Shown here piece by piece: positions 23,405 to 39,899 of a DNA stretch of 64,000 nucleotides; position 1 is the stretch's first letter, and every line of letters begins with the position of its first letter. Under the pieces are notes generated by a model, which saw nothing but the letters and a program-made list of their open reading frames with translations, was not told the DNA's origin and did not search any database. The position numbers and the translations under genes are program-made. The DNA comes from Ilumatobacteraceae bacterium (GTDB lineage: Bacteria > Actinomycetota > Acidimicrobiia > Acidimicrobiales > Ilumatobacteraceae). The stretch spans positions 1-64,000 of the forward strand of contig JALHOG010000009.1 in the NCBI GenBank assembly GCA_022843125.1. The letters run 5' to 3'.

Positions 23405-24718
23405 ATGCAGCACCTTCGCGTTCCAACCGCCGCGCTGGTCGCCGGCGCACTCGCACTCGTCGCCGCCTGCGGCGCCGAGCCCGAGTCGACGGCCACATCG
23501 ACGAGCGGACCCGCGCCAGCGGGTCTCGTGGCCGTTCCCGAGCGGGTGCCGTCGGGCGCAGATCCGACGCTCGCCGGCGAGGCGGTCACCACGTTCGGGT
23601 TCGAGCTGCTGACGGCGGCGGGGTCCACGACCTCGCCTGGCGACAACCTCATCGTCTCGCCGCTCAGCATCGCGATCGCGCTCGGCATGGTCGAGCCGGG
23701 AACGAGCGGCGACGGCACCACCGAGCTCCACACCCTGCTGGGCATCGACGACCCGGCCGCATGGCACGCGTCGATGAGCGCGCTCGAGCAGTCACTCGAA
23801 GCTCGGCAAGCGGAGCCGGTCGACCCCGCGTACGGCGAGGGCCAGGAGCCGGGCGAGCTGCTCGTGCGGATCGCCAACGCCGCCTTCCTCCAGCCCGGCT
23901 ACCCGTTCCGAGCCGATTACCTCGATGCTGTCGGCACCAACTACGGGGCCGTGCTCGAGGAGCTCGACTTCGCCGCCGACCAATCGGCCGCCGCCGAGCG
24001 GATCAACGACTTCATCGCCGACGCCACCGACGACCGCATCACCGATCTCGTTCCACCGGACGCGATCCGGGCCGACACCGTCGCCGCGCTCGTGAACGCA
24101 TTGCTGCTGCAGGCATCGTGGCAGTCCGAGTTCGACGCCACCCGGACCGTCGACGACGCGACGTTCACCCTCGTCGACGGCACGCCCGTGACCGTCCCGA
24201 TGATGCAGGGCGGGAGCAGCCGGTCGGGCAGCGGTGACGGCTGGGTCGGTGCTTCCAAGCAGCTGATCGGTGGGCTGCGCTTCGAGGTCGTACTGCCGGA
24301 CGAGGGCCGCTTCGACGAGATCGCCGGCCGCTATGCCGACGTGGTCGCCGACCTCGCCGCCAGCCAGAACCCCGGCGGTGAGCTGGTGGTGCCGCGCTTC
24401 GAGACGCGGGTCAACACACCCCTCACCGACGTCCTCCAGGTGATGGGCCTCGCCGCGCCGTTCTCCGAGGGTTCGCTGCTCGGTGTCGCCGACGACCCGC
24501 TGACGAAGATCGACCAGGTGCTGCACGAGGCGTGGCTCTCGGTCGACGAGACGGGCATCGAGGCCGCCGCCGCGACGGTCGTGCTGATGGTCGCCGTGAG
24601 CGCCCCGGTCGACGAGCCGATTCCCGTCGTGCTCGACCGGCCGTTCCTGTTCCGGATCGTCGACGACGCATCGGGCGCGACCCTGTTCGGCGGACGCATC
24701 ATGGACCCGACCGCTTGA
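23405..24718 (+). CDS. Serpin-family lipoprotein (putative protease inhibitor)
   Basis: 437 residues. The N-terminus VAGALALVAACG is a lipobox, so the inhibitor would be anchored outside the membrane. Serpin features: NLIVSPLSIAIALGMVEPGT, IANAAFLQPGYPF, the shutter region, WLSVDETGIEAAAAT (hinge of the reactive loop) and DRPFLFRIVDDASGATLFGG at the end. The alanine-rich hinge is the kind seen in inhibitory serpins. Counting 17 residues from Glu382 puts the scissile bond at Val398-Ser399, suggesting elastase-like targets; loop length is assumed. It is a single gene 37 bases after the methyltransferase gene, possibly co-transcribed. Confidence 0.88.
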   Translation: MQHLRVPTAALVAGALALVAACGAEPESTATSTSGPAPAGLVAVPERVPSGADPTLAGEAVTTFGFELLTAAGSTTSPGDNLIVSPLSIAIALGMVEPGTSGDGTTELHTLLGIDDPAAWHASMSALEQSLEARQAEPVDPAYGEGQEPGELLVRIANAAFLQPGYPFRADYLDAVGTNYGAVLEELDFAADQSAAAERINDFIADATDDRITDLVPPDAIRADTVAALVNALLLQASWQSEFDATRTVDDATFTLVDGTPVTVPMMQGGSSRSGSGDGWVGASKQLIGGLRFEVVLPDEGRFDEIAGRYADVVADLAASQNPGGELVVPRFETRVNTPLTDVLQVMGLAAPFSEGSLLGVADDPLTKIDQVLHEAWLSVDETGIEAAAATVVLMVAVSAPVDEPIPVVLDRPFLFRIVDDASGATLFGGRIMDPTA

Positions 24719-28519: not shown

Positions 28520-29941
28520 TCAGGCCGAACGCGCGGCCCACCACGCGAGGAGGCGCTCACGCGCCTCGTCGTCACCGATCGGACCCTCGTCGAGGCGGAT
28601 GTCGAGCAGGAACTGCAGGGCCTCCCCCACCACACGACCGGGCGGGACGTCGAGCAGCTCCATGACCGCGCGCCCGTCGAGCTCGGGCCGGATCGAGGCC
28701 AGCTCCTCCGCCTCGGCGAGCGCGGCGATGCGCTCCTCCAGATCGTCCATCCGCTTCGACAGCTGGACCGCCTTGCGCTCGTTGCGCGTGGTGCAGTCGC
28801 AACGGGTCAACACGTTCAACTCGTTGAGCAACGGGCCGGCGTCGCGGACGTACCGCCTCACCGCCGAGTCGCTCCAACCGAGCCGGTACGTGTGAAACCG
28901 CAGGTGCAACGCAACCAGCTCGGTGACTGCCGCGGTGTCGTCGTTCGAGTAGCGCAACGCCTCCATCCGCTTGCGGGTCATGCGTGCGCCGACGGCGTCA
29001 TGGTGGTGGAACGTCGTGCCCTTGCCCGGCTGATGACCGCGTGTGCGGGGCTTGCCGATGTCGTGGAACAGTGCGGCGAGGCGCACGCGGCGGAAGTCGA
29101 ACGGCGCCCGGCCAGGAGGTTGCTCGTGCGGCGGGCGCACGTTCTCGACCACGGCGATCGTGTGCGTGAGCACGTCCTTGTGGCGATGGATCGGGTCGTG
29201 CTCGAGGCGCATCGCCGGGAGCTCTGGGAGGAAGTGGTCGGCCAACCCGGTGTCGTGCAGGAAGAACAGGCCGGCCGCCGGGTGGTCGAGTGTCATGAGC
29301 TTGTCGAGCTCGTCTCGGATGCGCTCGGCAGACACGATCGCCAGCCTCGGCGCCATCGCCTCGACCGCAGCGACGATCTCATCGGTCGGCTGCAGGTCGT
29401 AGCCGGCGATGAAGCGTGCCGCACGCAGCATGCGCAACGGGTCGTCGCTGAAGCTGACGTCGGGCCCGAGCGGCGTGCGCAGCACCCGGCTCATCAGATC
29501 GGCGGCGCCCCCGAAGGGATCGACGAGCGTGGGGGTGTCGGCCGTGACCTCGAGCGCCATCGCGTTGACGGTGAAGTCGCGGCGGCCGAGATCGGTCTCG
29601 ACGTCGTCCGCGTACGTGACGTGCGGCTTGCGCGAATCGTCGGTGTACGACTCGGCGCGAAAGGTCGTGATCTCGTAGGTGCGATCGCCGGACTTGGCGC
29701 CGATCGTGCCGAACTTCTCACCCTGGTTCCACACGGCGTCGGCCCAGTCGCCGATGCACCCCTTGATCTCGTCCGGGCGGGCATCGGTGGTGAAGTCGAG
29801 ATCGAAGTCGTCACGGCGATGATCGATCAGGAGATCGCGGACGCTGCCCCCGACCAGGTAGAGCCGGTGCCCAGCCGCGCGGAACCGGGCGGCGAGCGGC
29901 GCCAACTCGGCGAGCACGGGTGCGAATCGATCCGGGATCAT
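28520..29941 (-). CDS. cca: CCA-adding tRNA nucleotidyltransferase
   Basis: 473 residues. The class II nucleotidyltransferase core shows LVGGSVRDLLIDHRRDDFDL with the DxD metal motif, then RRDFTVNAMAL, LRAARFIAGYDL and the HD phosphohydrolase part ALFHDIGKP. This actinobacterial PcnA/CCA type finishes or repairs the tRNA 3' CCA end. In mycobacteria the orthologue (PcnA) sits at the same place, divergent from the envelope cluster, which supports the synteny seen here. Confidence 0.93.
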   Translation of the reverse strand: MIPDRFAPVLAELAPLAARFRAAGHRLYLVGGSVRDLLIDHRRDDFDLDFTTDARPDEIKGCIGDWADAVWNQGEKFGTIGAKSGDRTYEITTFRAESYTDDSRKPHVTYADDVETDLGRRDFTVNAMALEVTADTPTLVDPFGGAADLMSRVLRTPLGPDVSFSDDPLRMLRAARFIAGYDLQPTDEIVAAVEAMAPRLAIVSAERIRDELDKLMTLDHPAAGLFFLHDTGLADHFLPELPAMRLEHDPIHRHKDVLTHTIAVVENVRPPHEQPPGRAPFDFRRVRLAALFHDIGKPRTRGHQPGKGTTFHHHDAVGARMTRKRMEALRYSNDDTAAVTELVALHLRFHTYRLGWSDSAVRRYVRDAGPLLNELNVLTRCDCTTRNERKAVQLSKRMDDLEERIAALAEAEELASIRPELDGRAVMELLDVPPGRVVGEALQFLLDIRLDEGPIGDDEARERLLAWWAARSA

Positions 29942-30034: not shown

Positions 30035-30817
30035 GTGACGGTCGAGGCGCGGCTACCGTCACGCACGGTGAACGGGTCGGTGTTGGGGTCAGGAAGGGAT
30101 GCGTCGCGCGCCCCGCGCCCATGGCACCTGAAGCCATGGCCCAACGACCCGGCGACCCGGCTCCTCGTGTTCGTCGACCACCTCACCGTCCCGACACCCG
30201 CCGACCTCGCCGCAGCCGACGCCGCTGCCCGCGCCGAGGGCGCCCGCACGATCCGGACGTCGGCGCTGTTCCCCCGTGCCGGCGAGATCGCCGCTGAAGC
30301 CGGCTACGAGGTGATCGACACGCTCGCACTGCTCCGCCTCGTCCTCGACGACGACTTCGATCGCGTCGTCGAGTCGCGCATCGGGCCGATCGCACCCAAG
30401 ACCGCCCCGGTCCGAACGTGGCACCACCGCCACGCGGCCGCCGTCGACCAGGACGCCTTCGGGGTGCTCTGGGGGAACGACGCCGCCAGCCTGCGCGCGA
30501 TCCGGTACGCCACACCGGTGCACCGGGCCCGCCGAGTCGGCCGCGGTCGAGGGATGGCCGGATTCGCGATCTCCGGCGCCGCCGGTGAGAGCGGCTACGT
30601 CCAGCGTCTCGCCGTGGCGTCGGCACACCGGCGGCGCGGCGTCGGCCGCGACCTGGTGCTCGACGCACTGCTGTGGATGCGCCGTCGCGGCTTGACGACC
30701 GCCTACGTCAACACCGGCGTCACCAACGCACCTGCACTTGCGCTCTACGCCGACCTCGGCTTCAGCCGCATGGGTGACGACCTGGTGATCGCCGAGCGAC
30801 GTCTGGACGCCGGATGA
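30035..30817 (+). CDS. GNAT-family N-acetyltransferase
   Basis: The GTG at 30035 gives 260 residues; the open frame further upstream overlaps cca on the other strand and is shadow. The C-terminal half is a GNAT fold: YVQRLAVASAHRRRGVGRDL holds the R-x-x-G-x-G acetyl-CoA loop, then LTTAYVNTGVTNAPALALY and LGFSRMGDDLVI. The N-terminal 110 residues may be a degenerate GNAT half. It overlaps the next gene by 4 bases (ATGA). In mycobacteria a NUDIX protein (MutT4) occupies this slot. The substrate is unknown. Confidence 0.78.
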   Translation: MTVEARLPSRTVNGSVLGSGRDASRAPRPWHLKPWPNDPATRLLVFVDHLTVPTPADLAAADAAARAEGARTIRTSALFPRAGEIAAEAGYEVIDTLALLRLVLDDDFDRVVESRIGPIAPKTAPVRTWHHRHAAAVDQDAFGVLWGNDAASLRAIRYATPVHRARRVGRGRGMAGFAISGAAGESGYVQRLAVASAHRRRGVGRDLVLDALLWMRRRGLTTAYVNTGVTNAPALALYADLGFSRMGDDLVIAERRLDAG

Positions 30818-33057
30818 GCACCGCCCTCCCGCGGCACCGCCGACCGGTCATCGCCGTGGCGGGCGTGGCGACGCTGCTCGCACTCGTGATGGCGGCGGTG
30901 CCCGCGGCACCGGCCTCATCGCAGGAGCCGACCGCAGCCGACCTCGAGTTGCTCGATCAGACCTTCGTGGTCACATCCGACGGCACGGCACGGTTCTCGT
31001 TCGAACTGACCGAAGGCGTCCGCGCCGACATCAGCACGACCACCACGACCACCACGACAACAACAACAACCACCACGACGACCACGACCACGCTCGCACC
31101 CGGGTTGCTGCCGCCGGAACCGGTGATCCCGCCGACGTCGCTGGTGACACCGACGCCGGTGACTCCTGCGACCATCCCTGCGCCGACGACCACCGTCGCA
31201 CCAGTCGTCGAGCCACCGGCGCTGGTCCTGCAGGTGCGCGCCCACCGACCTGCTGCTCGCCGCAGCGACGTCGCCGCCGCCGCGACCGGCCAACTCGGGC
31301 CCGCGGTCGACCTGTACGAACTCGACCTCTACGACGTGCTCAGCATCGACCCGGAAACCGGCCGGCGGCGGATTGACTTCGAGGTACCGATCAGCGAGCA
31401 GCCGAACGACCGCTCACTCCAACTGTCGGAGCCCGGCGTGTATCCGATCAGCATCCAGATCCGGCGCGACGGCCGATTGGTGGTCGACGCCGCGACATTC
31501 CTCGAACGCACCCGACCCGTGAGCTTCGGGCCGTTCAGCATCGCGGTCGTGGCCGGCGTCGACGACGTGTCGAGCATCCCGACCGGGGCCGAACTCGCGA
31601 CCGCCCGCGACCAACTCGAGCGCCTGGCAGAGCTGGGCGAGCGCACCCAGATCCCGCTGACGGTGGCGATCCCGCCCGTGCTCACCACCACGATCTTGGC
31701 GGACGAGCCCGAGCTCGCCGCACGCCTCGGCACAGCGCTGGCTGCTGACAACATCGTGTCAGCGACCGATCTGCCGCTCGATCCGAGCTCCGCGGTCGCT
31801 GCCGGGCTCGACAACGACTTCACGCGACGGCTGGGCGATGGTGAGGCGGCGATCACGTCGACGCTCGACGGCCCGACCCCGCGGCGCGACGCCTGGTTGA
31901 TCCGCGACGGGCTGACAACCGACGGCGCGGCTGCGGTACGCGACGCCGGGGCCCAGTTGCTCATCGTCCCCTACGACCGCTACCTCGAGTTCGGGGGCAG
32001 CCTCCCCGGCTTCACCGATTCGACGCTGATGATGGCCGCCGCTCTGCCCGGCGACGAGGAGCTGCCGATGATGGTGCTCGACGAGATGGCGAACCTCGTC
32101 GACCCCGACCGCACCACCGGCAACAGCGCGATCGAGGATGCGGTCCGGTTGATGGCGGAGATCGCGGCCATCCGGACGCAGCTGGAACCTCAGCGGCGAT
32201 CACTCGTGCTGGCGACACCGGACTTCGGACTCCTCGACCCGGCTGTCGTCGCCCAGCTCGAACGGTTCGCCCTGGAGCATCCCGACGTCGACTTCCAACC
32301 GCTCGCCGCGCTCCCCGGGCTCACCAACACGTTCTTCATCGACGGCGACGTGCTCACCGTCGACCTCGACGCTGCACCACCGGTCGACCTCCGGCCGCGA
32401 GTCGATGCCGCTGCGATCGAGGAGTTGCGTCGAGCCGACGTGGCCTCGATGCTGCCCGACGACGACACCCGCCCTGCGGCGTGGCACGTACAGCTGCGGA
32501 CCGCCGTCACGACGGGCGTCGACGACGACGACGCCGCCGGGCTGATCCAACAGGTGCAGGACGAACTGCTCGCTGTCAGGGGTGCGGTCGCGCCGCCCGA
32601 ACCGTTCCCGTTCACCGTCAGCGGCCGCGAGACTCGGCTCCCGATCGCCATCACCAACACCGGGCCGACAGCGCTCGACGTCGTGGTCAGACTGGAGTCG
32701 GCACGGCTGTCGTTCCCGCTCAACGACATCGCGGTCACGCTCCCGCCGAACGCGACCACCGAGATCCGAGTCGACGTGGTCGCTCGCTCCAACGGCGAGT
32801 TCCCCCTTCGCGTCCTGCTGCGCACCCCCGCCGGCAACCAGCTGACCGAACCCGTCGTGCTGACGGCTCGCGTCAACAACCTCACAGGCCTCGGCCGCGT
32901 CGCGACAGTCGGCCTCCTGCTCGTTCTCGCCACGTGGTGGTTCACCTATCTGAGCCGCCGCCGGCGCGCCAAGCGATCCGTCGAGCTCGGCGCCAGCGCC
33001 GAGCGGCATCCGGCCCGACCGCGACCAGAGGAACCGGCGACAGACCCGGCCCAGTAG
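30814..33057 (+). CDS. DUF6049-like secreted single-anchor envelope protein
   Basis: 747 residues: a signal peptide (PVIAVAGVATLLALVMAAVPAAPASS), a run of about 19 threonines (around residues 74-92), a large extracellular region and a C-terminal helix (VATVGLLLVLATWWFTYL) followed by RRRRAKR. So the bulk lies outside with a short basic tail inside. The layout and place next to cca match mycobacterial Rv3909, the DUF6049 family; detailed homology cannot be checked here. The extracellular part has DVDFQPLAALPGL and an immunoglobulin-like region near residue 600-690. It starts in a 4-base overlap with the GNAT gene; 11 bases separate it from the DegV gene. Confidence 0.75.
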   Translation: MSTALPRHRRPVIAVAGVATLLALVMAAVPAAPASSQEPTAADLELLDQTFVVTSDGTARFSFELTEGVRADISTTTTTTTTTTTTTTTTTTTLAPGLLPPEPVIPPTSLVTPTPVTPATIPAPTTTVAPVVEPPALVLQVRAHRPAARRSDVAAAATGQLGPAVDLYELDLYDVLSIDPETGRRRIDFEVPISEQPNDRSLQLSEPGVYPISIQIRRDGRLVVDAATFLERTRPVSFGPFSIAVVAGVDDVSSIPTGAELATARDQLERLAELGERTQIPLTVAIPPVLTTTILADEPELAARLGTALAADNIVSATDLPLDPSSAVAAGLDNDFTRRLGDGEAAITSTLDGPTPRRDAWLIRDGLTTDGAAAVRDAGAQLLIVPYDRYLEFGGSLPGFTDSTLMMAAALPGDEELPMMVLDEMANLVDPDRTTGNSAIEDAVRLMAEIAAIRTQLEPQRRSLVLATPDFGLLDPAVVAQLERFALEHPDVDFQPLAALPGLTNTFFIDGDVLTVDLDAAPPVDLRPRVDAAAIEELRRADVASMLPDDDTRPAAWHVQLRTAVTTGVDDDDAAGLIQQVQDELLAVRGAVAPPEPFPFTVSGRETRLPIAITNTGPTALDVVVRLESARLSFPLNDIAVTLPPNATTEIRVDVVARSNGEFPLRVLLRTPAGNQLTEPVVLTARVNNLTGLGRVATVGLLLVLATWWFTYLSRRRRAKRSVELGASAERHPARPRPEEPATDPAQ
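31036..31092 (+). repeat. Threonine-codon tract (ACN)n
   Basis: About 19 consecutive Thr codons mixing ACC, ACG and ACA. The mixture of codons shows the tract is kept at the protein level rather than being a fresh slippage product. It probably forms a glycosylatable stalk. Confidence 0.85.
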
Positions 33058-33068
33058 CCTCGCGGCCC

Positions 33069-33908
33069 GTGAGCATCCGCATCGTCACCGACTCGTCCTG
33101 CGATCTCCCCGCCGAGGTGGTCGACGCGCACGGCATCCGCGTGGTGCCGCTCTCGATCCGCTTCGGTGACGAGGAGTTCATCGACCGCGAGCAGCTCACC
33201 ACCGCCGAGTTCTGGGCCCGCTGCGCCACCAGCTCCACCCTCCCTGAGACCGCCGCTCCGGCCCCCGGCCAGTTCGAGCAGGCCTATCGTTCGCTGCTGG
33301 CCGATGGCGCCACCGGCATCGTCGTCGTCGCGCTCTCCGGTGAGCTGTCGGCCACGATGCAGAGCGCCGAGCTCGCCGCTCGGTCCCTCGCCGACGAGAT
33401 CCCGATCCGGGTCATCGACAGCCGGACCGTCACGCTCGGGGTGGGCACCATCGCGCTCGCCTGCGCACGCCGTGCCGCTGAGGGTGGCACGCTCGACGAG
33501 GTCGCCGGCCTGGCCGGCGACCTCGCCGCACGCACGCGCGTGTTCGGAGCGCTCGACACCCTCGAGAACCTGCGCAAAGGCGGCCGTATCGGCGGTGCTC
33601 GGGCGATGCTCGGCACGGCGCTGGCCATCAAGCCGATCATCGAGGTGCGCGACGGCAAGGTCGAAGAGGGTGGCAAGCAGCGCACCCGGACCAAAGCGCT
33701 CAAGTTCCTCGTCGACAAGGTGTCGGAGTACAGCAACCGGATCGAGTCGCTCGCCGTCCTCCACGCCGACTGCTCCGACGTCGACGCGTTCGTCGAGATG
33801 CTCCGCCCGCACTTCTCGGGCGAGATCGTCGTCGGCGAGATCGGCCCGGTCATCGGCACGCACGCCGGCCGCGGCACCATCGGCATCGCGTTCAGCCTCC
33901 GCGCCTGA
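33069..33908 (+). CDS. DegV-family fatty-acid-binding protein
   Basis: The GTG at 33069 gives 279 residues. DegV features: SIRIVTDSSCDLPAEVV at the start, STLPETAAPAPGQFEQAY with the conserved T/S-S-x-P loop, VVALSGELSATMQSA, VIDSRTVTLGVG and LDTLENLRKGGRIGGA. DegV/FakB proteins bind a fatty acid for phosphorylation or transfer. No FakA-like kinase is nearby. It lies 11 bases past the DUF6049-like gene and 61 bases before the protein kinase, probably in one transcript. The upstream open frame is shadow. Confidence 0.92.
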   Translation: MSIRIVTDSSCDLPAEVVDAHGIRVVPLSIRFGDEEFIDREQLTTAEFWARCATSSTLPETAAPAPGQFEQAYRSLLADGATGIVVVALSGELSATMQSAELAARSLADEIPIRVIDSRTVTLGVGTIALACARRAAEGGTLDEVAGLAGDLAARTRVFGALDTLENLRKGGRIGGARAMLGTALAIKPIIEVRDGKVEEGGKQRTRTKALKFLVDKVSEYSNRIESLAVLHADCSDVDAFVEMLRPHFSGEIVVGEIGPVIGTHAGRGTIGIAFSLRA

Positions 33909-33969: not shown

Positions 33970-35742
33970 ATGTCCATGAGCGCACCGCCCCCGTCTCACG
34001 CGCCCAGCGGGCAGGTCCTCGCGGGCCGCTATCAGCTCGATCGACGCATCGGTCAGGGCGGCATGGCCGAGGTGTGGGTGGCGACCGACGTCGACCTCGA
34101 CCGCAAGGTCGCGGTGAAGTGGTTGCGCACCAACCTGGCGAGTGATCCGGTGGTGACCGAGCGCTTCCGGCGTGAAGCGATCGCCGTCGCCCGCCTGAGC
34201 CACCCCAACATCGTCGCCGTCCACGATGTGTTCGTCCACGACGGCCGTCAGGCGGTCGTGATGCAACTCGTCGACGGCAAGAGCCTGCGCCAGTTGCTCG
34301 ACACCCAGAAGCGCCTCGGCCCCGAGCTCACCATCCACATCGGCGCTGCGATCGCCGGCGCGCTCGACGAAGCGCATCGCGCCGGGTTCGTCCATCGCGA
34401 CGTCAAGCCAGGCAACATCCTCGTCACGTCCGACGGCCGCGTCCTGCTCACCGATTTCGGCATCGCCAAGGGGCTGACCCCCGGCGACGACGACCTCACG
34501 AGCGACAACGTGATGATGGGCACCGCGAAGTACCTCGCCCCGGAACAGGTGCGCGGGCGGCGACTCGACGGGCGCGCCGACCTGTACTCGTTGTCACTCG
34601 TGCTCTACGAATGCCTCGCCGGGCGCGTGCCGTTCCTCGGTGAGACCGACGCCGACACCGCACTCGCCCGCCTCCAGCGCGACCCGACCGACCTCGGTCA
34701 CCTGCGGCCCACATTGCCGATCGGCCTCGTCAACCTGATCCATCGCACCCTCGCACGCAACCCGGCACACCGGCCGCAGACCGGCGCCGACCTGAAGGCG
34801 GCGCTGCTCGCGGTCGATACGTCGCCGCCTGCGATCGACGGCACCCCTGCCGATCTCCCCGAGCGGCTCGCGAGCCCTCCCCGGCGCGCCCTCGGCGCGG
34901 GCCCCGGCAACCCCGGCAAGCCCGGCGGCCCCAACACGGCGATCCTCGTCAGCGGTGTCGCCCCGGCAATCCCGGGCGAGCCGCGCATCACCGGTCAGAT
35001 CCCGGTGACGCGCACCGGTGACGACACCCCGACGATCCGCCCGGATGACACACCCCCGGCGTCCGAACCGATGCACGGCCGGCCTGCTCGATCCGACCAG
35101 CAGCGCTTCGGTCCTTCGCTCGTCGTCGTGTCGATGTTGCTCGTCGTCGCCCTGATCGTCGCCGGGATCCTCTTCATCGCCATGAACCGTGGCGACTCCG
35201 ACGGCGGGTTCACCACGCCGACGGTCGTTCCCGCCGAAGCGAGCGCCGCACCGGATGCGTCGACGGCTCAACCGCCCGCAGCAGGTCCGGTCAGTATCTC
35301 GAGTATCCAGGCGTGGGATCCCGACGGTGACAACGGCACCGAGAACGACGCCCAGGCCGGCAACGCGATCGCCGATGGCAGCGACAGCACCTCGTGGCCC
35401 ACCGAGTGCTATTCGAACGAGTACCTCAGCGGGAAGCGCGGGGTCGGCCTCATCCTCGGTCTGTCCGGCGCCGCCGCAGGAACCCTGTCGGTCGAGTCCC
35501 TCAACGGGCCCTACCAGATCGACGTCTACGCCAGCACGGCTGCCGCCGCGCCGACCACCCTCGAGGCCTGGACGAAGGTCGGCGAGACCGCCTTCGCCGA
35601 TCAGCCAGGGACCCTCACCCGACAGGTCGCCGTCCCGGCCACGTTCGTGCTCGTGTGGTTGAAGCAGCTCGGACGCGACGAAGCGTGTACCGAGAACAAC
35701 CCGTTCCGCGGTCGCCTCGGCGAGATCACCTACGGGTCGTGA
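33970..35742 (+). CDS. Transmembrane Ser/Thr protein kinase with extracellular domain at the mviN locus
   Basis: 590 residues. Kinase domain about 18-275: glycine loop RIGQGGMAEVW, VAVK (Lys50), HRDVKPGNIL (Asp144), TDFGIAKG (Asp162), YLAPEQVRG. Every catalytic residue is present. A Pro-rich juxtamembrane segment follows, then one transmembrane helix (VVVSMLLVVALIVAGILFIA, about 385-404) and an extracellular domain (about 435-590) with two cysteines (WPTECYSN and EACTENNPF), probably disulfide-bonded and of galactose-binding/discoidin-like type. Mycobacterial MviN (Rv3910) at this place is a MurJ flippase fused to a pseudokinase, a helix and such a domain. Here the MurJ part is missing. It overlaps the sigma factor gene by 4 bases (GTGA). 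Confidence 0.9.
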   Translation: MSMSAPPPSHAPSGQVLAGRYQLDRRIGQGGMAEVWVATDVDLDRKVAVKWLRTNLASDPVVTERFRREAIAVARLSHPNIVAVHDVFVHDGRQAVVMQLVDGKSLRQLLDTQKRLGPELTIHIGAAIAGALDEAHRAGFVHRDVKPGNILVTSDGRVLLTDFGIAKGLTPGDDDLTSDNVMMGTAKYLAPEQVRGRRLDGRADLYSLSLVLYECLAGRVPFLGETDADTALARLQRDPTDLGHLRPTLPIGLVNLIHRTLARNPAHRPQTGADLKAALLAVDTSPPAIDGTPADLPERLASPPRRALGAGPGNPGKPGGPNTAILVSGVAPAIPGEPRITGQIPVTRTGDDTPTIRPDDTPPASEPMHGRPARSDQQRFGPSLVVVSMLLVVALIVAGILFIAMNRGDSDGGFTTPTVVPAEASAAPDASTAQPPAAGPVSISSIQAWDPDGDNGTENDAQAGNAIADGSDSTSWPTECYSNEYLSGKRGVGLILGLSGAAAGTLSVESLNGPYQIDVYASTAAAAPTTLEAWTKVGETAFADQPGTLTRQVAVPATFVLVWLKQLGRDEACTENNPFRGRLGEITYGS

Positions 35743-36371
35743 ACGCGTCGCAACGCAGCGATGTCGATCTCGTCACTGCGGCCCGCAGCGGCGATCGCAC
35801 CGCGCTCGATGAGCTGCTCCGCCGGCACTACGACCGGGTCCACGCGGTGTGCCGCCGCATCGCCGGCTCGACGCGTGATGCCGATGATGCCGCCCAGGAG
35901 GCGATGATCCGGATCGTTCGATCGCTCGACCGGTTCGACGGACGCGCGGCATTCGGCACGTGGGCCTACCGGATCGCGACCAACGCTGCACTCGACGAAC
36001 TGCGCCGCCGCAAGCGCCGACCGGCGCTCCACGTCGTGGCCGACGGCGACGACGAGCGCTCCTGGGAGCCGGCCGACGACCGTGCGCATCGCGACGTCGA
36101 AGCCGTGGTCGACCGCACCGCGATCGACGAGGCGTTGGCCGAGTTGCCGGTCGAGTTCCGCCTCCCGGTCGTCATGCGTGACGTGGGCGACCTCGACTAC
36201 GCCGAGATCGCCGACGAGCTCGGCGTGCCGATCGGCACCGTCAAATCGCGTATCGCCCGCGGCCGCCGCATGCTCGTCGAGCGGCTCGGGAACCACGAGG
36301 CGCCCGGCGAACGTCCAACCAGAGCCACCCCTCATCCGGCATCCCCGGATCGACCCTCCGACGACCTGTGA
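35739..36371 (+). CDS. sigM: ECF sigma factor (SigM position)
   Basis: The GTG at 35739 gives 210 residues. Region 2 reads LDELLRRHYDRVHAVCRRI, DADDAAQEAMIRIVRSL and FGTWAYRIATNAALDELRRR. Region 4 reads ALAELPVEFRLPVVMRDV, then LGVPIGTVKSRIARGRRML. The place between the kinase and an anti-sigma gene, and before trxB/trxA, matches mycobacterial sigM. It starts in a 4-base overlap with the kinase stop and itself overlaps the anti-sigma gene by 4. It should direct a stress or envelope regulon; the target promoters are unknown. A Pro-rich C-terminal tail of about 25 residues is unusual. Confidence 0.9.
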   Translation: MNASQRSDVDLVTAARSGDRTALDELLRRHYDRVHAVCRRIAGSTRDADDAAQEAMIRIVRSLDRFDGRAAFGTWAYRIATNAALDELRRRKRRPALHVVADGDDERSWEPADDRAHRDVEAVVDRTAIDEALAELPVEFRLPVVMRDVGDLDYAEIADELGVPIGTVKSRIARGRRMLVERLGNHEAPGERPTRATPHPASPDRPSDDL

Positions 36372-37309
36372 ACGACGACGACCTCACCGAACTGATCCTG
36401 CGTGCCAGCGCCTACCTCGACGGCGAACTCGACGCCGAGGAGCAGGCGCTCGCCGAAGCCGACCCGGCCGTGATGGCCGAGGTCGAGGTGCTGCGTTCGC
36501 TGCAGGCCGAGCTGCGCGACGTCGCATCGCCCGCTGCTGGGGCGCGTGAGTCGGCGATCGCTGCCGCCCTGGCCCAGTTCGATGCAGCCCAGTTCGATGC
36601 AGCCCAGTCGACAACGACCGCCGCAGCTCCCGAGCACACCGATCGAGTGGTGCCCTTCCGCCCCCGACCGGCGTACTCGCGCTGGTTGACGGCGGCGGCC
36701 GCGGTCGTCGCGATCGGGCTCGTGGGCGTCGTGATCGCCCAGAGCACCAGGGGCGGCGACGACGAGCAGAGCGCCATCGAGCCATCGGCCGCAGAAGCGT
36801 CGACCGCGGAGCAGGTCGAGATTGCCGCAGCCGACGCCGAACTGCGCTCGTCCGTCACCGATGCCCTCCCTCCCGCCGCTGCCGAGGCCGGCGAGATGGC
36901 ATCGGCCGAAGCCGACGACGACACGTCGATGGCGGCTGGCACAGAGTCCGCCGATCAGCCCGCCGAAGACAGCGGCGCGCCTCCTTCGTCGGAACTCACG
37001 CTCCTCTCGACCGTCGCCCCGAGCGAGGTCCCGCAGACCACTGCGCCGCGCACGCTCGACGAACCGGTCACCGAGGACACGCTGTTCGCCGTCGGACGCG
37101 ACCTGCTGGCCCAGTCTGAAGCCGGCACGCTCGGCATCACCCCGGAGACCGCCTGCGAGTTCGGGAGCTACGTGATCCTCGCTCGTGTCGGCTTCGTCGT
37201 CGGTGACGACGTGCGAGAGGCGATCATCGCCGCGGACCCCGATTTCCCGGAAGTGGGCGCCTTCGACGCGAGCTCGTGCCTCGAGTTGTCCATCGTCACC
37301 GGCGAGTGA
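36368..37309 (+). CDS. Transmembrane anti-sigma factor, partner of the SigM-like sigma
   Basis: The GTG at 36368 gives 313 residues. The N-terminal cytoplasmic part (LRASAYLDGELDAEEQALAE) has the usual opening of anti-sigma proteins but no HxxxCxxC zinc motif. One helix follows (WLTAAAAVVAIGLVGVVIAQ, about 101-120), then an Ala/Glu-rich linker and a small extracellular domain with two cysteines (TACEFGSYV and SSCLEL). A 5-residue duplication (QFDAA twice) precedes the helix. It overlaps its sigma by 4 bases, the standard pairing. Release of sigma by proteolysis of the membrane part is the likely control. Confidence 0.82.
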   Translation: MNDDDLTELILRASAYLDGELDAEEQALAEADPAVMAEVEVLRSLQAELRDVASPAAGARESAIAAALAQFDAAQFDAAQSTTTAAAPEHTDRVVPFRPRPAYSRWLTAAAAVVAIGLVGVVIAQSTRGGDDEQSAIEPSAAEASTAEQVEIAAADAELRSSVTDALPPAAAEAGEMASAEADDDTSMAAGTESADQPAEDSGAPPSSELTLLSTVAPSEVPQTTAPRTLDEPVTEDTLFAVGRDLLAQSEAGTLGITPETACEFGSYVILARVGFVVGDDVREAIIAADPDFPEVGAFDASSCLELSIVTGE

Positions 37310-37369: not shown

Positions 37370-37687
37370 ATGCCGGGGAACCCCTTGACCGATCCCAACT
37401 GGGCGCCCGATCTCGCCGACCAGATCACCGAGTTCATCGGCAACGTCCGCGACAAGACCACCAACAACGCGATCAAGGTGGCGCGAGCGATCGTCTTCGG
37501 TCTGCTCGGAGCGATCCTCGGCGTCGTCACGTTGGTGCTGGCGTTGATCTTCGCCACCCGCGGCATCCAGGCGATCGTCGACCTGTTCACCACGTGGGGT
37601 CGCGCCGTCTACATCAGCTACTTCGTCGTCGGAGGAATCTTCACCCTCACCGGGCTGTTCCTCATGACGAAGCGGGCCACCCGCTGA
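37370..37687 (+). CDS. Small two-helix membrane protein (actinobacterial holin-X-like)
   Basis: 105 residues with an amphipathic N-terminus and two hydrophobic segments (IVFGLLGAILGVVTLVLALIF and ISYFVVGGIFTLTGLFLM). The arrangement recalls the DUF1469 / actinobacterial holin-X group, but the match is by layout only. It lies between the anti-sigma gene and trxB on the same strand (60 and 23 bases away), so it is probably in the same transcript. Confidence 0.6.
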   Translation: MPGNPLTDPNWAPDLADQITEFIGNVRDKTTNNAIKVARAIVFGLLGAILGVVTLVLALIFATRGIQAIVDLFTTWGRAVYISYFVVGGIFTLTGLFLMTKRATR

Positions 37688-37710
37688 TCCCCCACCGCAC
37701 TGGAGCGCCC

Positions 37711-38667
37711 ATGTCCTCCGATTCCGTCCGCAACGTCATCATCGTCGGCTCCGGCCCGGCCGGTCTGACGGCGGCGATCTACACCGCTCGCGCCAACCTC
37801 GCCCCGCTCGTGATCGAGGGGGAGCCATCGTCCACCTCGGACCAGCCGGGCGGCCAGCTGATGCTCACCACCGAGGTCGAGAACTTCCCCGGCTTCCCCG
37901 AGGGCGTCATGGGTCCCGATCTGATGATGAACTTCCGGTCACAGGCGCAGCGGTTCGGCGCCGAGTTCCTGACCGAGAAGGTCACCCGTGTCGACTTCGA
38001 CTCACGTCCGTTCCGCGTGTACGTCCGCGACACCGAGTACCAGGCCCACTCGATCATCGTGTCGACCGGCGCTCGATCACTGATGCTCGGCCTCGAGTCC
38101 GAGCAGCGTCTCATCGGTCATGGGCTCTCCACGTGCGCCACGTGTGACGGGTTCTTCTTCCGCGGTCACGAGATCGCGGTTGTCGGTGGCGGTGACTCCG
38201 CCATCGAGGAGGCGACGTTCCTCACCAAGTTCGCCGACAAGGTCACGATCATCCACCGTCGCGACGAGCTGCGCGCCAGCAAGATCATGCAGGACCGCGC
38301 GTTCGCCAACCCCAAGATCGAGTTCCTCTGGAACCACACCGTCACCGAACTCCTCGGCGACACGAAGGTCGAGGGCATCCAGGTGACGAGCACGATCGAC
38401 GGTACGGTCTCCACGCTCCCGGTCACCGGCGTCTTCGTGGCGATCGGGCACCAGCCCAACACCGACCTGTTCAAGGGCGTATTGGACATGGAAGACAGCG
38501 GTTACCTGATCACGCAGCCGGGTTCGACCTACACGAACGTCGACGGCGTGTTCGCCTGCGGCGACGTCCAGGACCACACCTACCGTCAGGCGATCACCGC
38601 CGCCGGCAGTGGTTGCATGGCCGCGATCGACGCCGAACGCTGGCTCGAAGCCAACGTCCACAGCTGA
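37711..38667 (+). CDS. trxB: Thioredoxin reductase
   Basis: The ATG at 37711 gives 318 residues: FAD loop VIIVGSGPAGLTAAIY, PGGQLMLTTEVENFPGFPEG, redox pair CATCDGFFF, NADPH loop VVGGGDSAIEEA and FACGDVQDHTYRQA at the end. It reduces thioredoxin with NADPH. It lies in the order sigma / anti-sigma / trxB / SDR / trxA; mycobacteria have trxB directly before trxA, so the SDR gene is an insertion. Confidence 0.96.
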   Translation: MSSDSVRNVIIVGSGPAGLTAAIYTARANLAPLVIEGEPSSTSDQPGGQLMLTTEVENFPGFPEGVMGPDLMMNFRSQAQRFGAEFLTEKVTRVDFDSRPFRVYVRDTEYQAHSIIVSTGARSLMLGLESEQRLIGHGLSTCATCDGFFFRGHEIAVVGGGDSAIEEATFLTKFADKVTIIHRRDELRASKIMQDRAFANPKIEFLWNHTVTELLGDTKVEGIQVTSTIDGTVSTLPVTGVFVAIGHQPNTDLFKGVLDMEDSGYLITQPGSTYTNVDGVFACGDVQDHTYRQAITAAGSGCMAAIDAERWLEANVHS

Positions 38668-39560: not shown

Positions 39561-39899
39561 ATGGCCAACGGCATCACCACCCTCACCAGCGCCACGTTCG
39601 ACGAGACCGTCAGCGGTTCGTCGGCGCCGGTCATCGTCGACTTCTGGGCCGAGTGGTGCGGTCCCTGCAAGCAGATCGCACCGGTGCTCGAGGAGATGGC
39701 GGCCGAGCTCGGCGATCAGGTGAAGATCACCAAGCTCAACGTCGACGAGCACCCCGACATCGCGATGCGTTACAGCGTCATGAGTATCCCCACGTTGCTG
39801 ATCTTCGACGGCGGCGACGTGAAGAAGAAGATCGTCGGCGCCAAGGGCAAGGGCGCCCTGATGCAGGAGCTCGACGAATTTCTGGGCACTTCCCGCTGA
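39561..39899 (+). CDS. trxA: Thioredoxin
   Basis: 112 residues with VIVDFWAEWCGPCKQIAPVL holding the WCGPC redox site, then the cis-proline loop SVMSIPTLLIFDGG. The ATG at 39561 is preceded by GAGAGGA. It is reduced by TrxB encoded 0.9 kb upstream. Its stop codon TGA is nested in CTGA, which I read as the start of the CwlM-like gene. Confidence 0.97.
   Translation: MANGITTLTSATFDETVSGSSAPVIVDFWAEWCGPCKQIAPVLEEMAAELGDQVKITKLNVDEHPDIAMRYSVMSIPTLLIFDGGDVKKKIVGAKGKGALMQELDEFLGTSR

Follow-up and report, generated by a model that had tools for sequence, protein, structure and literature searches.

A free-standing kinase with intact catalytic motifs and an MviN-type outer domain at the DUF6049–SigM locus of an Ilumatobacteraceae bacterium

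The closest described system to the locus analysed here is mycobacterial MviN (Rv3910/MSMEG_6929), in which MurJ is fused to a pseudokinase of the family ActPs3 followed by an outer domain; the structure 3UQC is that of its pseudokinase domain (PMC12599244). According to the same paper, the tail of the pseudokinase is a substrate of PknB and is bound by FhaA, and other ActPs3 pseudokinases are devoid of the carbohydrate-binding domain of MviN. A second paper places the pseudokinase extension of MviN only in organisms with arabinogalactan (PMC10166564), and the authors of a third lean towards a view in which FhaA promotes peptidoglycan synthesis (PMC11898655). Among the titles and abstract beginnings covered by our literature search, there is no report of an intact kinase at the DUF6049–SigM locus. 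In this study, we describe such a protein, encoded within a stretch of 64,000 nucleotides (the window) from an Ilumatobacteraceae bacterium (GCA_022843125.1, contig JALHOG010000009.1). As in MviN, a single helix separates the kinase-like domain from a homologous outer domain, and the gene lies at the same locus, running from DUF6049 to the SigM-like and TrxB genes. Unlike MviN, the window kinase has an intact triad (VAVK, HRD, N, DFG), it is encoded by a separate gene with MurJ located elsewhere, and it has a DegV neighbour and a pair of cysteines in the outer domain. Our main reading, to which we assign a probability of roughly 0.7, is that this kinase is the intact, free-standing orthologue of the pseudokinase and outer-domain half of MviN, acting through the mechanism proposed below.

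Table 1. Features of the kinase locus in the window, with the parts of the kinase
Feature	Coordinates	Strand	Basis
Poly(A) polymerase / CCA-adding family gene (pcnB-like), conserved divergent neighbour	28520–29941	-	PF01743 E 2.3e-33; gene order
DUF6049 protein, first gene of conserved locus	30814–33057	+	PF19516 E 1.4e-9, 37.7 bits against a cut-off of 30.1; gene order
DegV-family gene, between DUF6049 and kinase	33069–33908	+	PF02645 E 1.1e-76; GTG start
Transmembrane Ser/Thr kinase with outer domain, 590 aa	33970–35742	+	ORF list, Pfam, motifs
Kinase domain, residues 21–270, with K50, D144, D162	34030–34779	+	Pfam PF00069 E 5.9e-45; motifs
Cytoplasmic linker, Pro/Thr-rich, Thr-Pro motifs	34780–35121	+	[DE].TP motif count
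Single predicted TM helix, residues 385–403	35122–35178	+	Mean hydropathy 3.21
Outer domain, residues 440–590 (151 residues), predicted beta-sandwich like CBM32/discoidin, C480 and C573	35287–35739	+	AlphaFold2, Foldseek, homology to MviN-type outer domain
SigM-like ECF sigma factor	35739–36371	+	NF007225 SigM is best match, 146.1 bits, below cut-off of 190
Probable anti-sigma factor	36368–37309	+	zf-HC2 E 0.0037, 17.8 bits, below cut-off of 22.2; conserved place
Thioredoxin reductase TrxB (presumed)	37594–38667	+	ORF; conserved place
Thioredoxin TrxA (presumed)	39561–39899	+	ORF; conserved place

The first-pass annotation of this DNA had remarked that MurJ is absent between the DUF6049 and SigM-like genes, and a genome-wide MurJ search agrees; a DegV gene, which that annotation had overlooked, stands there, separated from the DUF6049 stop by 11 bases. 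At its other end, the stop of the kinase gene overlaps the start of the SigM-like gene (GTGA, 35739–35742). The genes that we take, from their sequences, to be TrxB and TrxA lie further downstream, the true start of the former being probably near 37711. The DUF6049 protein contains a run of 19 threonines, and a bacterial serpin gene is found at 23405–24718 on the forward strand of the window (PF00079, E 1e-69).

The arrangement DUF6049–MurJ–(DegV)–kinase with outer domain–SigM–TrxB is common to many genomes of the phylum. Surroundings were fetched for 91 of the 148 phylum matches to the outer domain, and for 20 loci from a separate search; by a rule based on neighbouring genes, 84 of the 106 kinase rows with the domain are at the locus and 22 outside it. 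At the locus, MurJ is fused to the kinase in 7 rows (all dead), adjacent to it in 41 (18 intact, 23 dead) and absent in 32 (29 intact, 3 dead), and a further 4, all intact, are too short to judge; outside the locus, 21 kinases are intact and one (L150) is not. Dead kinases are therefore nearly always beside or fused to MurJ. A comparison by independent pairs comprised two pairs on supported branches, counted on an earlier and stricter locus table that was without rows such as L103, L126, L135 and L143 and wrongly scored L147 and L151 as lacking MurJ, so ancestry may explain this association. The same outer domain and locus are more widespread than in print, with separate genes common and the kinase often intact, the proteins having been matched by domain and locus. 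Two single cases were also observed: a 711-aa protein (L173, genome G185, family f51) combines an intact triad with the same outer domain off the locus, in a genome that also has the MurJ fusion L174; and at L125 (G313) the kinase and outer-domain matches are spread over several ORFs, as in a frameshifted or degenerate gene.

These neighbourhoods bear on a different view of the locus, namely that the kinase regulates the adjoining SigM-like sigma factor, for example via the anti-sigma factor, instead of the cell wall, and that the tie to MurJ is only historical. The overlap between kinase stop and sigma start speaks for it, as do 22 loci in named records of relatives, all from MAGs and found with the outer domain: the SigM and anti-sigma models match in every one and MurJ is missing from all of them, 16 of the 22 reaching DUF6049. 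On the other hand, the mycobacterial relative works through MurJ and FhaA (PMC12599244, PMC11898655), and 48 of the 84 locus rows have MurJ beside the kinase or fused to it, four of the 84 being too short to tell. We consider regulation of SigM an unlikely account of the kinase.

The whereabouts of MurJ were followed in the source genome (183 contigs, 93% complete; the window lies on contig C9). In a genome-wide search, MurJ matches were restricted to contigs C5 and C39, with none on C9: a stand-alone MurJ (G000:C5:134171-135532) reaches 283 bits on TIGR01695, over the cut-off of 236, and a second, MurJ-like match stays below it at 93 bits. The two proteins are 523 and 452 aa long as scanned and neither matches any kinase family, so that within this 93% complete genome a MurJ–pseudokinase fusion elsewhere is rejected. 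The earlier suggestion that MurJ was lost from the locus holds; loss from the genome is rejected, the orthologue being present on C5. Across the source genome and its relatives, a MurJ match is found in 40 of 41 genomes and exceeds the cut-off in 39. One of the relatives (G040, family f17, locus L103; 95% complete) has a MurJ match below the cut-off only, and its kinase locus is also without MurJ.

At the kinase locus, MurJ is missing in all nine fetched stretches of the window's own family, f1 (L106–L113 and the window), and six further families of the same order (L095–L100) have it placed between DUF6049 and DegV. A quick tree built on 70 MurJ rows unites the off-locus proteins of f1, f3, f6 and f12 in a single clade (99), whose sister group is the locus MurJ of f5, f7, f9, f14 and f15 (SH-aLRT 99). 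In addition, a proB-like gene (AA_kinase and PUA domains, with Obg adjoining) is found within the same 10–14 kb in 12/12 of the other off-locus MurJ stretches compared. Given the clade and the shared proB-like neighbour, a single move of MurJ fits best for these four families, and on this evidence from trees and gene order MurJ was relocated, as an orthologue, to another site in f1 and three relatives. The possibility that the off-locus MurJ is an unrelated paralogue is ruled out, as it groups with MurJ proteins from the locus in sister families and the paralogues have a clade of their own. Families f11, f17, f19 and f23 are likewise without MurJ at the locus, and the single move does not account for them. 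Apart from these, a very divergent MurJ-like clade, on a branch of 1.7, comprises proteins of L096, L122, L133, L144, L160, L177 and the off-locus L210, the MurJ of L096 being of this divergent kind; perhaps it represents replacement by another member of the superfamily.

The kinase ORF shows a codon-position GC consistent with a gene, and the features ascribed to it earlier (the lysine and two aspartates, one membrane helix and an outer domain with two cysteines) are borne out by Pfam, motif and hydropathy analyses. The motifs VAVK (K50), HRDVKPGN (D144) and DFG (D162) are all in place and the activation loop contains a threonine; the kinase is, judging by these motifs, catalytically intact. 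It shares with PknB and the PASTA kinases an intact Hanks-type domain, close sequence, one helix and an outer part, and its best matches are the PASTA-kinase model NF033483 among NCBIfam models (328 bits, short of the cut-off of 450) and PknB (6.4e-59) and PknA in the PDB, as would be expected if it were an ordinary PknB-like kinase that happens to stand at this locus, with no functional kinship to MviN. Unlike those kinases, it has a predicted beta-sandwich in its outer part, with no PASTA match in the Pfam scan, and the genome has a PASTA kinase at another site; moreover, both the outer domain and the gene order correspond to MviN, which makes an ordinary PknB-like identity quite improbable. 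The same scan found no MurJ match within the 590-aa protein. Used whole as a query, the kinase matched 1055 plasmid records and 55 phage records, none over 80% of its length, and the matches listed covered the kinase part only.

In an alignment of 98 proteins with kinase and outer domain, the lysine and both aspartates are kept in 68 and not in 30, one of the latter (L150) having a start that is apparently cut or misread. The triad is intact in 25/25 rows of the window's order, window included, rows that were selected for carrying both kinase and outer domain. Degenerate kinases are found in f51 (seven fused rows), f46 (genomes of 7–10 Mb), f55, f58, f75, f78, f34, f35, f38 and f41, as well as in two of three f64 rows, in one of f52 and in two families of the class outside the order (f26, f27); L131, of f64, keeps the three residues but has a degraded glycine loop. 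When the set is widened to 54 distinct proteins of the class, 51 have HRD and DFG; the exceptions are two pseudokinases, L118 and L119, and L028, which is truncated by the end of its contig. L012, cut as well, is missing only the part that bears the lysine.

With regard to the outer domain, the first-pass annotation had likened it to that of MviN, and the comparison of profiles leaves the two as homologues: the outer domains of 25 Acidimicrobiia match those of seven fusions with a probability of 99.7 and E 9.1e-26, and the window domain alone matches the seven with E 7.2e-11. BLAST against a single fusion outer domain gives a modest match, with 31% over 89 residues (E 1e-6). These seven fusions, all of f51, are proteins of 1198–1523 aa (stop to stop) that start with MurJ and end with the outer domain; they carry the VALT and LSIDH motifs, as does M. 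tuberculosis mviN in Table 1 of PMC12599244, and one of them (L176) matches the PDB entries 3uqc_A (E 3.6e-126) and 3oun_B (9.6e-127). At the level of sequence, common descent of the outer domain with that of the MviN-type fusions is established. An AlphaFold2 model built from 23 sequences is mostly beta (pLDDT 93.9, pTM 0.90). The top Foldseek match of this model is an intraflagellar transport protein (E 5.3e-5), and the other leading matches, at E about 1e-4 and TM mostly 0.5–0.6, are adhesin domains of gingipains, chitosan-binding modules (4zxe_A, E 6.8e-5) and CBM32 (4a42_A, TM 0.61/0.71). The model fits a galactose-binding-like, possibly glycan-binding, fold. The predicted fold resembles CBM32 and F5/8 type C (discoidin) domains; unlike them, the window domain matches no Pfam family at E up to 1, and it had no match among PDB sequences or PHROGs. 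With the 25-row profile, the sole matches are weak ones to F5/8 type C (best E 0.0039).

Using that profile, the outer domain is found in 134 of 296 genomes of the phylum (162 are without a match), and in 5 of 12 genomes from other families of the same order (none in the other 7). Over the last 150 residues of the 54 class proteins, a plain count gives two cysteines in 35, none in 18 and one in 1; in the alignment, the pair is kept in the window's family and absent from L029–L034, which belong to other families. On another view, unrelated kinases would each have acquired the domain as a mobile carbohydrate-binding module, and its likeness to MviN would reflect domain shuffling. This view could draw on the 22 of 106 rows off the locus, some of which (f37, f52, f66) are placed by the tree amid kinases of the locus, and on weak matches of relatives to CBM_AftD (5/25) or F5_F8_type_C (3/25, best 1.3e-4), but it is very improbable in view of the gene order conserved around kinase and domain in many lineages and of the off-locus f42, f45, f53, f54, f62 and f76, which branch outside the locus kinases.

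The order of events can be approached from the trees, which are quick ones with the exception of one MurJ tree, and in which the pseudokinase branches are long and single placements unsure. Rooted on PASTA-type kinases of the order, an outgroup whose rows did not all keep to one side, the pseudokinases fall among the intact kinases of the locus, the relationship that the earlier annotation had proposed to examine by phylogeny. In AU tests on 90 rows, a single clade of pseudokinases, and with it a single origin, is rejected (p-AU 0.000274), grouping of the f35 pseudokinases with intact f69 and f77 is not rejected (p 0.779), and a clade made up of all intact locus kinases is rejected as well (p 6e-39). 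The 90-row kinase tree requires at least 4 changes of state, the state of the rows from the later locus fetch having been set by motif search and not by alignment; for MurJ the minimum is 6 with 48 rows and 5 with 42, six divergent rows being left out. Families f35 and f38 are placed differently in the kinase and MurJ trees. Catalysis is easier to lose than to regain, and this argues for repeated loss. Altogether, a separate, intact kinase looks ancestral, catalysis appears to have been lost repeatedly, and fusion is seen in one family of those fetched. Two options had been put forward at the outset, a separate ancestral kinase later fused to MurJ or the departure of MurJ from this locus; gene order and trees support both, as successive steps and not as rivals. 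We regard this evolutionary part of our main reading as highly probable, sequence comparison being its basis.

As for function, one cluster of the source genome encodes FhaA (FhaA_N and FHA), a second FHA protein, a PP2C phosphatase, RodA, a PbpA-like transpeptidase and the PASTA kinase (PknB), and FhaA_N is present in 36 of the 41 genomes. A gene with an AbiEi-type antitoxin domain adjoins the FhaA–PknB cluster (L260:1111-1917; PF09407, E 1e-28). From gene order, homology and the presence of the FhaA and PknB genes, we infer that the window kinase controls cell-wall synthesis. The motif [DE].TP occurs in 39 of 54 linkers, with 15 lacking it, against a mean of 7.1 and a maximum of 16 in 1000 shuffles, a comparison that overstates the evidence since related linkers are not independent. 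Among the 54 linkers, 26 have at least one of these sites beginning no further than 34 residues from the helix (28 sites in all, 24 of them at a distance of 20–26); in the window kinase, the juxtamembrane RPDDTPPA begins about 26 residues ahead of the helix. By eye, a further juxtamembrane motif, similar to F-[VL]-R-[ST]-E-G-R-W, recurs in distant lineages, in dead and intact kinases.

The mechanism that we propose is tentative. The outer beta-sandwich would bind a glycan or glycolipid of the cell wall, and binding of this ligand would lead to dimerisation and to autophosphorylation of the activation loop and the linker. An FHA protein, for instance FhaA, could then recognise a phosphorylated threonine of the linker, the best candidate mark being the [DE]-x-Thr-Pro site just inside the membrane, and this would adjust MurJ or its partners in trans. 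The mycobacterial counterpart is a dead kinase, fused to MurJ and phosphorylated in its tail by PknB, whereas the window kinase could write its own mark.

Taken more broadly, the pseudokinase of MviN could be what is left, after loss of activity, of a cell-wall sensor kinase that is widespread in actinobacteria and that would ancestrally have been separate, active and located beside MurJ. Catalysis would have been lost several times independently, the outer domain and the place being kept, and the fusion to MurJ would have arisen in one lineage, while lineages of the window type would retain the original circuit, in which the kinase writes its own FHA-docking mark; we put this forward as a possibility, somewhat short of an even chance. 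The locus offers a case of repeated catalytic loss at one syntenic place, and the window kinase, expected to be still enzymatic, allows asking what the pseudokinase did before it died, that is, which ligand its outer domain may bind and which residue it may mark.
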